From: Bacteroidia bacterium
Lineage (GTDB): Bacteria > Bacteroidota > Bacteroidia > Chitinophagales > JAUHXS01
NCBI GenBank assembly: GCA_030426955.1
Contig: JAUHXS010000006.1
Location: 62,001 to 126,000, forward strand
Length of the DNA: 64,000 bases
Direction of reading: 5' to 3'
Below the pieces are notes generated by a model. That model made no database searches. It was not told where the DNA came from and was given only the letters and a program-made list of their open reading frames with translations. Positions 32,106-35,719 of this stretch are shown piece by piece. Positions within the stretch are counted from its first letter, which is position 1; every line of letters starts with the position of its first letter. A program made the position numbers and the translations under genes.

Positions 32106-33017
32106 TTATTCTTCTTTTTCACTCAATTCCTTTACTTTATTTGCCCAATTGCTTAATATACCTTTTTGATTTCCAAACTCTTCTCTGAATGGTCCGCAAA
32201 CTACTTGGAATTTTGTAATGCCAGTCTGTTTATCTTCTATTAAAAAGAATTTTTCAGTATACCTTAAGTGACTATAGTCGTTTTGAATGTAATAGTTTCC
32301 AAAGAGCTTATCTGCATAAGATGACGTTCTAATACCAACCACCTTATAGCTATAGTTAATATTTGAATGCTTTCTCCAATCCGCTTTTAGTCGATTATTA
32401 CTATTGAAAATGGGCTGAAGTTCTTCGACATAGTCATGACTAGTGAGCACTTGCCATACTTTATCTTGACTAGCATTTATTTCTATATCAAATGTAACAA
32501 ATTGTGCCTTTGTAATATTAGCCTGCTCTTCTTTTGATAGAAACCTGACTTCTTTCAGTTGGGCGCTACCATTACCTCCGTTTAAGTATCTAAATCCAAC
32601 AATAGAATCATCTTGCACATGAATAGCTTGTATTAGAATTATGAGCTCTTCTCTTTTAGTATACGGGCTAAAAATGCTTGCTAACTGTGGCATAGGAATG
32701 TTTAGTGTATGTGCATTAGGGTACTCAACCGTATCCACAAAGATCAAAGAGGCGCCACTTCGTGCTTCTTCTTTGGATGGTAGCCTACCATTTATAACAG
32801 GTACATCTTGCCAATGCTCAATGTCAACAGGTGGAAACCCTTTTAAATTATCTGGGCAATGCCAACCACCATATTGGTGGGACTCTACCTGTGCTATTGG
32901 CTTGTTTTGTTTTTTAGATTGATTATCCTTAATAAAGGCTGATGTATCATGCCGTACACAAGACGTAAGCAGCATAATGAGAAATACCATATATGTTTTA
33001 TAGTGTTTGTTTTTCAT
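32106..33017 (-). CDS. Lipoprotein with SRPBCC-like C-terminal domain
   Basis: A 303-residue exported lipoprotein with lipobox LLTSC (C20). The N-terminal part has GGWHCPDNLKGFPPVDIEHW, PVINGRLPSKEEARSG and FRYLNGGNGSA, which I recognise as a conserved Bacteroidota block without known function. The C-terminal part (about 165-295; FDIEINASQDKVWQVLTSHDYVEELQPIF) resembles the start of an SRPBCC/polyketide-cyclase lipid-binding fold. The gene is divergent from a transmembrane regulator across 139 bp carrying tandem repeats, so it is a likely target of that regulator. Confidence 0.7.
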   Translation of the reverse strand: MKNKHYKTYMVFLIMLLTSCVRHDTSAFIKDNQSKKQNKPIAQVESHQYGGWHCPDNLKGFPPVDIEHWQDVPVINGRLPSKEEARSGASLIFVDTVEYPNAHTLNIPMPQLASIFSPYTKREELIILIQAIHVQDDSIVGFRYLNGGNGSAQLKEVRFLSKEEQANITKAQFVTFDIEINASQDKVWQVLTSHDYVEELQPIFNSNNRLKADWRKHSNINYSYKVVGIRTSSYADKLFGNYYIQNDYSHLRYTEKFFLIEDKQTGITKFQVVCGPFREEFGNQKGILSNWANKVKELSEKEE

Positions 33018-33071
33018 GATTTTACTAGTTTATTGTGTGATAAATATATGATATGGCAATGCTTAAGCTTA

Positions 33072-33110
33072 TGTATGTAGTGTAAATTAATGTAAATCAT
33101 GTGTAATTTA
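33072..33110. promoter_or_regulatory. Helically phased TGTAAAT direct repeats, candidate operator
   Basis: TGTAAAT at 33081, TGTAAAT at 33091 and TGTAATT at 33102, preceded by TGTATGT at 33072. Spacings are 9, 10 and 11 bp, about one helical turn, as in OmpR/PhoB-type binding sites. They lie 47 bp or more before the regulator ATG and about 55-90 bp before the divergent lipoprotein start. Confidence 0.5.
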
Positions 33111-33156
33111 TTATAAAACTATTCTTTACAGTTTTTAATTAAGGTAAATTAGCTGA

Positions 33157-33996
33157 ATGATCTTTCGATGGTGGTTTAAACATCTATTGCTTTTAAGTCT
33201 AGTTACTTTGATATCTTCTTATAGCCAGGCAGTAGAGAGTGATCAACAAACGAAGGTATTGCTTCGCAAGGTTGGACATGAATTTTTATTAAAAATGGGG
33301 GATAGTACCTCCCGAATATTGCCAATTGAAAATGTAAATGGTAGATATTTAGTTCAGTTTGAAAGAATGCTGTTCTTTGAACCTGATCTGATAATGTCTG
33401 CCACATTTGAGGTTTTAGAGCAATTTCAAGTAAAAAACGACTACATTATCGAAGTCGAAAAATGTGGAAGTAAAGAAGTTGTTCATAGTTTTCAAACTAC
33501 TTTGATAGATAGTAGCCGTATGATTGCTTGTCAACAAAGACAGCTACCAATGGATTGTTATGCGTTCTATTTTACTAAAATTGAGGAAACTACAGATGAA
33601 TATAGTCAAATCTATATTTTAGGGATGATTATTTTAATGCTGATACTAGGAATGATATTCTATCTCAAAAGAAGGAGTGAAATATCAAATGAAACGCAAA
33701 ACAGCGTAAAAATAGGCGATTTCCAGTTTAACCCTAAAAGTTTGCTGCTTGTTCATGCCTCTCGGTCTGTAGAGTTATCCAATAAAGAGTCAGATTTGCT
33801 TTATCTTCTTTTTTTGAATAAAAATAAAACGCTCAAAAGGGAATATATATTAAGTATTGTTTGGGAGGATGATGGCGATTATGTCGGTAGAACCTTAGAT
33901 ATGTTTATATCAAAATTGCGTAAGAAGCTAGAGGCAGATCCTAAGATCAAAATCATTAATATCAGGGGACTAGGGTATCGGTTTGTGATTGATTAA
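33157..33996 (+). CDS. Transmembrane one-component regulator with C-terminal OmpR-type winged helix
   Basis: A 279-residue protein. Residues 1-24 are a signal-like segment (ends SSYSQA), 25-150 a periplasmic domain with three Cys (C103, C125, C134), 152-170 a membrane helix (YILGMIILMLILGMIFYL), and 184-279 a winged-helix DNA-binding domain. The last part has VELSNKESDLLYLLFLNKNKTLKREYIL and the OmpR-class end LDMFISKLRKKLE...GLGYRF. Topology is the reverse of ToxR/CadC, where the DNA-binding domain is N-terminal. There is no receiver or kinase, so signal passes directly through the membrane. The adjacent phased repeats are a likely binding site. Confidence 0.85.
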   Translation: MIFRWWFKHLLLLSLVTLISSYSQAVESDQQTKVLLRKVGHEFLLKMGDSTSRILPIENVNGRYLVQFERMLFFEPDLIMSATFEVLEQFQVKNDYIIEVEKCGSKEVVHSFQTTLIDSSRMIACQQRQLPMDCYAFYFTKIEETTDEYSQIYILGMIILMLILGMIFYLKRRSEISNETQNSVKIGDFQFNPKSLLLVHASRSVELSNKESDLLYLLFLNKNKTLKREYILSIVWEDDGDYVGRTLDMFISKLRKKLEADPKIKIINIRGLGYRFVID

Positions 33997-34057: not shown

Positions 34058-34495
34058 TTAAATTCCTAGTGTCAAGTGTCCTTTGACCTTATGATATCTT
34101 AAAGATGCTTTTATGCATTCTTTTAATTCTTTTTCTGGAATTTCCTGGTCTAATTGAAAAATGATTGCCCGCTTTCCTTCGTACTGAAACTTTTGATCAA
34201 AAACTAGCCTAAAAGTATCGACTAATCTGCTTGTACATTGGAAATACATGGCATACTGATTAGGGGTATTTTCTTTCCAGTCCATTCGTAAGGTGCTGCC
34301 GTCTTTGGTTACAAAGCTAGGTTCTCCCCACTTTAAGGTTTCTTCTAAAATCTTTATTCCTTCAGTTTCTTCCGCAGTATCTATTACCAGTTTTCGTAGA
34401 TACTGCATCTTGTCCCGAACAAAGTCGGGATAAGATGCAAAGACTTTTTCAACCCTAGCATTTGTATTTAGCTGTATCTTTTCCATTTTATTCAT
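34058..34495 (-). CDS. DUF1801-type protein
   Basis: A 145-residue cytoplasmic protein with the DUF1801 pattern: VFASYPDFVRDKMQYLRKLVIDT, ETLKWGEPSFVTKDGSTLRMDWKENTPNQYAMYF and KECIKASLRYHKVKGH. The family is a small alpha/beta fold without a firmly known biochemical role. It overlaps the preceding GyrI-like gene by 8 bp and is the last member of a three-gene operon led by a YafY-type regulator. An alternative ATG at 34486 avoids the overlap. Confidence 0.8.
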   Translation of the reverse strand: MNKMEKIQLNTNARVEKVFASYPDFVRDKMQYLRKLVIDTAEETEGIKILEETLKWGEPSFVTKDGSTLRMDWKENTPNQYAMYFQCTSRLVDTFRLVFDQKFQYEGKRAIIFQLDQEIPEKELKECIKASLRYHKVKGHLTLGI

Positions 34496-34952
34496 TTTTT
34501 ATACCTACATAAAAGTCTACCTCCGCATCGGAAGGGTTTTGTGCTTTTTCTCCAAAAATCTCAAAATCGGCAATATGAGTTCTGTCTAGATCCATTTCAA
34601 ATATTTTTGACCATTGATTCACTACCAGACCTTGCATCAAGTCTCCTCTGGTCGTTGTTTTTACGTAGCTTCCTCCGTTAAACGATTTGCCAATCATTTC
34701 ATTGGGGATGTGATCTAATGTGTCTACTTTGCATCCTAATATAGCCGTGTAGGGCTTGGTATGGTCGCTTTCATAGTCTGTGTATAGTGAATAGATTTCG
34801 CTGTCCACTTTATTTGGGATTTTCGATTGAATATTTTCGGCAATAAACTTACCCCAAAGTTCGGCAATTTCCCTGCTTGCCTGTCCATTCTCATTTGTCG
34901 TTCTTATTGCTATTCCAATAATGTTAAAAGGTTCAATTTTGACTGTTTGCAT
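34488..34952 (-). CDS. GyrI-like / effector-binding domain protein
   Basis: A 154-residue SOUL/GyrI-like small-molecule-binding protein. Visible pattern: VKIEPFNIIGIAIRTTNENGQASREIAELWGKFIAENI, YSLYTDYESDHTKPYTAILGCKV and SYVKTTTRGDLMQGLVVNQWSKIFE, then YVGIKNE. Stand-alone forms are often linked to drug-sensing regulators. The gene lies 5 bp after the YafY-like gene and overlaps the DUF1801 gene by 8 bp. Confidence 0.8.
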   Translation of the reverse strand: MQTVKIEPFNIIGIAIRTTNENGQASREIAELWGKFIAENIQSKIPNKVDSEIYSLYTDYESDHTKPYTAILGCKVDTLDHIPNEMIGKSFNGGSYVKTTTRGDLMQGLVVNQWSKIFEMDLDRTHIADFEIFGEKAQNPSDAEVDFYVGIKNE

Positions 34953-34957
34953 CTTTT

Positions 34958-35719
34958 CTAGTTTTTATGGTTCGATACAAAGGTAGATTGACCTTGTGTC
35001 AAAGGTATGTCAGGGGTGTCCTTATATTTTTCACTACATTTTTCGAGATACTGTTGTAAGGTCATTTTGTGAGGCTCAAATTGCTCTGTTAAAACTTGTA
35101 GTTTTTCGATGCAATCAATACGAAATGCTCTGAAATCATTTTTTAACCTGCAATAAGCAATAAGTATCCAATTGTCTTGGGTCGTATAAAGTGCAAATGG
35201 CTCTATTTCTCTTTGGCTTTGCTCTTTCTGTAAAGACAAGTATTCAATTCTTACCATTTGATAATTTGAAATAGTAGATTGTAATTGTATAAGGAAGGTA
35301 CTTGTTTTATTATTTTTACGATTATTGCGTACTTGTATTCTAGAGTTTAGTAACTCTGCTTTTTCTTTTTGGGAATATTTTAAGACTGATTTTATTTTTG
35401 TAATAGCATTTTCAAATTGTTCTCTTAAAGATTGGTCTTTATTCTTTTTAATCAGTTGTTCTGCCGTTATAAGTGCATTTGCTTCTTCTTGGGTGAACAT
35501 GACTGGAGGAATCTTATAATCTTCCATTATGGAATATCCTTTTCCTTCCTCAGTGAGGATTGGAACTCCTGACTTTTCAAGAGTTCTAATGTCTCTATAA
35601 ATCGTTCGGATACTTACATTGTGCTTTTCAGCGAGATCATTTGCTGTTACAATTCGTTTTGATTGCAATTGGGTCATTATTGCTGTCAATCTTGCAAGTC
35701 TTGGTTTTTCCTTGTCCAT
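34958..35719 (-). CDS. YafY/WYL-domain transcriptional regulator
   Basis: A 253-residue regulator. The N-terminal helix-turn-helix (about 1-65) is of the HTH_11/DeoR type (ARLTAIMTQLQSKRIVTANDLAEKHNVSIRTIYRDIRTLEKSG is its extent). The second domain (about 140-225) has IRIEY-like VRIEYLSLQ, EPFALYTTQDNWILIAYCRLKNDFRAFRIDCI, as in WYL ligand-binding domains. Such proteins act as repressors or activators responding to small ligands. It leads the operon with the GyrI-like and DUF1801 genes. Confidence 0.88.
   Translation of the reverse strand: MDKEKPRLARLTAIMTQLQSKRIVTANDLAEKHNVSIRTIYRDIRTLEKSGVPILTEEGKGYSIMEDYKIPPVMFTQEEANALITAEQLIKKNKDQSLREQFENAITKIKSVLKYSQKEKAELLNSRIQVRNNRKNNKTSTFLIQLQSTISNYQMVRIEYLSLQKEQSQREIEPFALYTTQDNWILIAYCRLKNDFRAFRIDCIEKLQVLTEQFEPHKMTLQQYLEKCSEKYKDTPDIPLTQGQSTFVSNHKN

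Follow-up and report, generated by a model that had tools for sequence, protein, structure and literature searches.

The window, a 64,000-nucleotide stretch of a contig from a Bacteroidia bacterium, contains two divergent genes with a predicted operator between them. The forward strand encodes a regulator of 279 amino acids (33157–33996), whose C-terminal part matches the Pfam family Trans_reg_C (residues 203–276, E 9.4e-20), the sole family to pass in a Pfam scan of the protein. This agrees with an earlier note on the sequence, which had described a 279-residue protein with a C-terminal OmpR-type winged helix. On the reverse strand lies the gene for an exported protein of 303 amino acids (32106–33017), with a lipoprotein-like N-terminus (LLTSC) and a possible SRPBCC-like C-terminal half, which is the predicted target of the regulator. 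The operator, in a gap of 139 bp, comprises the direct repeats TGTAAA/TGTAAA/TGTAA with steps of 10 and 11 bp (33081–33106, forward strand). Beside this module, at 34488–35719, are what we take by eye to be a DeoR/YafY-type HTH regulator and then a small effector-binding-like protein. The earlier account of the locus included neither the widespread family to which the regulator belongs nor its dedicated operator, both of which were found here.

Domain order and probable membrane topology of the regulator

An AlphaFold2 model of the regulator, computed from an 81-row alignment, has a mean pLDDT of 90.4 and runs from a helix (residues 2–47) through a small mixed domain and a membrane helix (148–178) to the winged helix. 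Residues 1–47 (33157–33297, forward strand, as for all parts of the gene) form an unbroken predicted helix, an anchor or signal sequence that enters the outer domain and carries the invariant R37. They are followed by the putative outer sensor domain (residues 48–147; 33298–33597), the membrane helix (residues 148–178; 33598–33690), whose cytoplasmic end bears the positively charged residues KRR, and the winged-helix DNA-binding domain (residues 184–279; 33706–33993). The recognition helix of the latter (243–260) is nearly invariant across the 81-row alignment, and the linker joining the DNA-binding domain to the membrane helix is short and poorly conserved. The membrane prediction held up at the place where the earlier note had put the helix, as residues 152–170 are the most hydrophobic 19-mer past the N-terminus (mean Kyte-Doolittle 2.69), a value matched in 8 of 2000 shuffles of residues 29–279. 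The signal sequence proposed alongside it stands in part: the N-terminus is hydrophobic, but may be an uncleaved anchor instead of a signal peptide, given the single helix 2–47 in the AlphaFold2 model. With either an anchor or a cleaved signal, the sensor would stay outside and the winged helix inside. With a DNA-binding domain (Trans_reg_C) and at least one membrane region (152–170) on one protein, the regulator fits the definition of a transmembrane transcription regulator (TTR) given in a survey of that class (PMC10269533).

The nearest NCBIfam model to the regulator is RprY (residues 170–278, E 2e-24), although the score of 86 bits is far short of the model's cut-off, 370. A structure search with the full-length model was dominated by matches to the DNA-binding domain, with CadC, SaeR and PhoB at Z 14–16; CadC (5ju7; Z 15.7, rmsd 1.9, 100 aligned residues) was tied with SaeR 4qwq and 4u88. 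The earlier note had proposed structure prediction and a family search for the periplasmic domain, and these yielded an AlphaFold2 domain with neither a Pfam family nor a close PDB fold. No relevant Pfam family was found for residues 1–176 in the 81 members, the sensor domain had no sequence match in the PDB, and a Foldseek search of its fold against the PDB gave nothing at E 0.001 (best 0.03). The best VIA-align match was alanyl-tRNA synthetase (Z 7.8, rmsd 2.8, 93 aligned), a level common for this tool.

Four residues, R37, D49, C125 and R128, are invariant in all 81 rows of the alignment. The outer domain holds three cysteines (103, 125 and 134). C103 and C134 occur together in 75 of the 81 rows, whereas 4 rows lack both and 2 have C103 alone; their joint loss was also read by eye in five of 20 rows from a first set of relatives, material that partly overlaps the 81-row alignment. 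This pattern of being kept or lost together suggests that C103 and C134 form a disulfide, and hence that the domain lies in an oxidising compartment outside the cytoplasm, which fits the Cys-containing periplasmic domain that had been claimed. C125 would then be an unpaired invariant cysteine, suggestive of a redox, metal or ligand signal. The hydrophobic segments and the covarying cysteines are indirect hints of a topology in which residues 48–147 would lie beyond the inner membrane.

A regulator family spread over Bacteroidota

A single-protein query of genome contigs found no relative, whereas an alignment-profile scan recovered full-length relatives at 80 loci spread over Bacteroidota, in Crocinitomix, Flavobacterium, Chryseobacterium, Chitinophaga, Mucilaginibacter, Pedobacter, Sphingobacterium, Saprospiraceae and others. 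The same scan returned 574 relatives, possibly including response regulators, a number that we do not take as the family size. The relatives are often close kin (44 in one clade), and locus counts are not counts of independent events. The first set, from 149 genomes of the order, comprised at least 19 full-length relatives in at least 17 genomes besides the host. A sensor-only profile hit 17 genomes in a sample of 198 from the phylum, and all 19 of its matches lie in frames of 279–325 amino acids, none of them kinase-sized. In all 81 members (the regulator and its 80 relatives), the membrane helix precedes the DNA-binding domain, bearing out the reversed domain order relative to ToxR and CadC that the first description had put forward. 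N-terminal hydrophobicity exceeds 1.6 in 74 members and is 1.26–1.59 in the remaining 7. By eye, a lipobox-like cysteine is present in the N-terminal segment of three regulators (L037, L041 and L044), some of which could be lipidated after cleavage.

Paralogues of the regulator in the host genome were rejected. The other four matches there (E ≤ 10) are to the DNA-binding part and lie in frames of 229–249 amino acids, a length that identifies them as response regulators and not copies of the regulator. The host genome also encodes an RprX/RprY-like kinase and response regulator pair (L165:827–3152; G000:C18), and the response regulator of this pair is the closest host-genome relative of the regulator's DNA-binding domain.

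A predicted operator at a fixed distance from the predicted partner promoter

Intergenic TGTAAA direct repeats, read on the regulator's strand, recur in the divergent loci, and the operator, like the recognition helix of the regulator, hardly varies. Scored as three units with a total pitch of 20–22 bp, the repeats reach 16 or more out of 18 points upstream of 75 regulators among 80, the remaining 5 falling below 16 and one of the 81 loci having too short an upstream, compared with 3 of 675 upstream regions of other genes at the same loci, where both strands were scored. The motif was discovered on the same set in which it was first counted. Among loci from a second search, a smaller and overlapping set, the operator is present in 15 of 18 (one of 19 being too short); L035 and L036 of this set are on the same contigs as L064 and L130, which leaves no more than 13 of 16 as new cases.

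In the host genome there is a single exact copy of the operator, and two-mismatch sites number three, against three in a backward control. A dispersed regulon found no support in the wider order either, with 19 exact three-repeat sites in 149 genomes against 10 in the backward control; 7 of the 19 are placed beside regulator copies by coordinates. The other 12, a count close to the backward-control expectation, were not placed beside a known regulator copy (G047, G051, G075, G104, G116, G128, G131, G132, G030:C63 and G100:C8), and some of them may be further targets.

A study of Flavobacterium psychrophilum (PMC9723704) gives the -7 box of that species as TAnnTTTG at -12 to -5, and leaderless mRNA as a minor class there (5.5%). 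The lipoprotein gene has a predicted -7 box, TATATTTA (33041–33048, reverse strand), that agrees with TAnnTTTG at 5 of 6 positions and lies 32 bp from the operator edge. Across the 75 loci with a scored operator, 67 have a partner-strand box (5 or 6 of 6 positions) that starts at one of two distances from the operator edge, 31 bp (22 loci) or 32 bp (45 loci), whereas other offsets have a mean of 0.46 loci each; the box at 31/32 bp is found with 13 partner clusters, and is missing there from 8 of the 75. The second set has a partner-strand box at 30–33 bp in 12 of 18 loci, while four (L035, L038, L041 and L044) have an operator scoring at least 16 and no box in that range. At L049, where partner and regulator are arranged in tandem, the operator lies ahead of the partner with a perfect box at 32 bp; thus the operator's position is tied to the promoter of the partner. 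The partner in this tandem operon (L049:6553–8484) has repeats of the type DNGQNWQNI, BNR-like by eye.

The near edge of the operator falls at about -44 from the predicted partner start. Such a position, ahead of the promoter core and with constant spacing to it, fits activation. The conserved operator and the neighbour-strand box at fixed distance lend strong support to what had been a guess in the earlier note, that the divergent lipoprotein is the target.

The regulator gene has its own predicted -7 box, TAAATTAG (33145–33152, forward strand), again 5 of 6 to TAnnTTTG and ending 4 nt before the ATG. TAnnTTTG is found within 30 nt in 32 of the 37 loci where the operator lies 38–61 nt from the regulator, and ends exactly 4 nt ahead of the ATG in 29 of those 37, the corresponding figures being 0 for the 44 other loci and, for control genes, 25 of 632. 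As a box at -12 to -5 makes the A of the ATG position +1, a leaderless regulator mRNA is predicted. In most of the other 44 loci, no more than about 25 nt separate the operator from the regulator start, an arrangement that would permit self-repression.

Unrelated partner genes beside one type of regulator

The upstream neighbour of the regulator is on the opposite strand in 74 of 81 loci, on the same strand in 6 and off the contig in 1, and 60 of the 74 divergent neighbours are signal-like in a crude hydrophobicity test. No such pattern is seen downstream (opposite strand in 48 of 79, same strand in 31). A few neighbours are, to judge by sequence, not exported; L079 has a methyltransferase in this place, and L122 an aldo-keto reductase.

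The divergent genes form 15 clusters, of which ten representatives were scanned with Pfam. A 180-amino acid family accounts for 20 loci (representative L090, without a Pfam match), proteins with a TonB_C-like end for 16 (representatives L056, over the cut-off, and L081, without a match), propeller proteins with Reg_prop for 13, one of them fused to YceI, and BNR-repeat proteins for 5; the lipoprotein type of the window, TPR plus peptidase S41 proteins and a 190-amino acid family have 4 loci each, and the remainder are singles. Relatives of the window's lipoprotein occupy the same position in L054, L055 and L060 (48–54% identity). This protein was rejected as a fixed partner, being retained solely in those three loci and found beside none of the 19 first-set regulators. 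The divergent SRPBCC-like lipoprotein of the earlier note was recovered as a lipoprotein-like open reading frame, but the SRPBCC part is only a sub-threshold match (Polyketide_cyc2, E 0.21, below the cut-off), obtained with the window's own protein alone among 4 members scanned.

On the regulator tree, at least 19 changes of partner type are needed among seven named types, a rough guide because this is a quick tree with 40 of 78 inner branches open; singles and loci without a divergent neighbour are excluded from the count. Since unrelated partners are found with one type of switch, we read the partner as an output and not as a receptor subunit. Seven loci (L090, L092, L095, L103, L112, L127 and L132) combine unrelated partners with near-identical DNA between operator and coding region, and these partners begin with an MKNK(K/R)N-type start, as if partner gene bodies had been exchanged behind a constant start.

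Proposed mechanism and alternatives

The domain order, the membrane helix, the family-wide operator, its distance from the promoter, the exchange of partner families and the single exact operator of the host genome can be read from the DNA itself. From these we infer a membrane topology, oligomerisation, DNA binding, activation as opposed to repression, and an activity set by a signal. Our main reading, to which we give a probability of about 0.7, is that this protein is a membrane-anchored one-component regulator that would use a dedicated operator to activate a single neighbouring gene, that of the exported protein. Outside the inner membrane, the N-terminal helix and helix 148–178 would carry a small sensor domain stabilised by a disulfide, with the OmpR/PhoB-type winged helix at the C-terminus in the cytoplasm. 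The sensor would read a condition beyond the inner membrane and, via the membrane helix, set the pairing or packing of the winged helices. The regulator, probably as a dimer or oligomer, would bind the three TGTAAA direct repeats between its own gene and that of the exported protein, and recruit polymerase to the partner promoter, whose -7 box is some three turns of the helix away. About half of the family would also activate their own leaderless promoter in this way.

The regulator might instead repress both its partner and itself. Most of the other 44 loci have an operator some 25 nt or less from the start of the regulator gene, and a -7 box near the ATG is absent from all 44, as self-repression there would lead one to expect. 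However, on the partner side 31–32 bp lie between the operator edge and the -7 box downstream of it, a gap too wide for the box to be covered, and this fixed spacing is what activation would give. We regard repression as unlikely. The membrane form might also be dormant until regulated proteolysis frees the DNA-binding domain, whose C-terminal position, after the membrane helix and a short, poorly conserved linker, would allow simple release. Membrane regulators, ToxR and TcpP among them, are known to undergo proteolysis. The invariant residues of the sensor domain are, however, what a receptor would have, and we consider activation by proteolysis improbable.

Beyond its proposed role as an output, the divergent protein might act as a ToxS-like co-sensor that binds the outer domain of the regulator. 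It is exported and adjacent, and transmembrane regulators with co-component partners have been described (PMC10269533), yet closely related regulators stand beside unrelated partners, with the 19 or more partner-type changes counted on a quick tree with many weak forks, and a co-sensor role seems very doubtful to us. A further idea concerns ancestry and is compatible with a one-component activator, namely that the sensor derives from an outer domain of the kind found in RprX-type histidine kinases, which would make the regulator a short-circuited two-component system. RprY is the best curated relative of the DNA-binding part, and an hhalign comparison of the sensor with 25 RprX-type outer domains scored 29.8, above every one of 150 column-shuffled controls (maximum 24.1; 0/150 reach 29.8). 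This likeness is nevertheless weak, with a probability of just 17% over 36 columns, a single-sequence comparison of the sensor with RprX-type kinase domains came back empty, and the sensor was never found on a chain as long as a kinase, all 19 matches being in frames of 279–325 amino acids. Such an origin is rather unlikely, and we do not claim kinship between the sensor and RprX.

Discussion

The activator proposed here differs from each of the known systems that it most resembles. ToxR and CadC share its winged helix and have the opposite domain order, with the DNA-binding domain N-terminal and the sensor C-terminal. Common to them and the present family is an OmpR-type winged helix, a membrane helix and an outer sensor on one chain, but here the order is reversed in 81 of 81 members, there are two hydrophobic segments, an operator of its own and an exchangeable neighbour, and the sensor is without a known relative. 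PhoB boxes are direct repeats with steps near 11 bp, and the family has in common with RprY/PhoB-type response regulators both the C-terminal domain and a direct-repeat operator of such steps. Unlike OmpR/PhoB response regulators, it carries no N-terminal receiver domain, as judged by Pfam over residues 1–176 of 81 members. Hybrid TTRs have an outer sensor first and the DNA-binding domain at the C-terminus, so the reversed order alone is not unprecedented. Domain order and occurrence in Bacteroidota are shared with Bacteroides hybrid TTRs and hybrid two-component systems; in contrast to both, the regulator has no kinase or receiver domain, and the sensor frames are 279–325 amino acids long (19/19).

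The survey of Demey et al. 2023 (PMC10269533) presents TTRs as an established class that has been little studied and in which Bacteroidota are rich, and hybrid TTRs as a broad class of membrane regulators. The present proteins have the DNA-binding domain and membrane region in common with those surveyed; the survey counts by domain, and we found in it no description of this regulator family, its operator or its partners. No description of the family was found in openly licensed PubMed Central papers. TTRs as such are already known; what is new is the domain order together with a dedicated operator and an exchangeable target.

More tentatively, at somewhat less than even odds, the whole may be viewed as a cassette, in which a conserved membrane switch with its operator-promoter unit is found across Bacteroidota and unrelated exported-protein genes have been swapped in many times, so that the same signal would drive different envelope outputs through an undescribed, cysteine-bearing sensor fold. 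The invariant Cys125/Arg128 site makes a specific chemical signal worth seeking. For the majority of transmembrane regulators, neither signal nor operator nor target is known; in this family an operator, a target and a promoter geometry can be predicted from the sequence by itself, and tests with one gene and one operator are feasible in genera that are easily worked with, among them Flavobacterium, Chitinophaga and Pedobacter. The family would offer a natural case of rewiring, in which the output gene is swapped and the switch stays constant.
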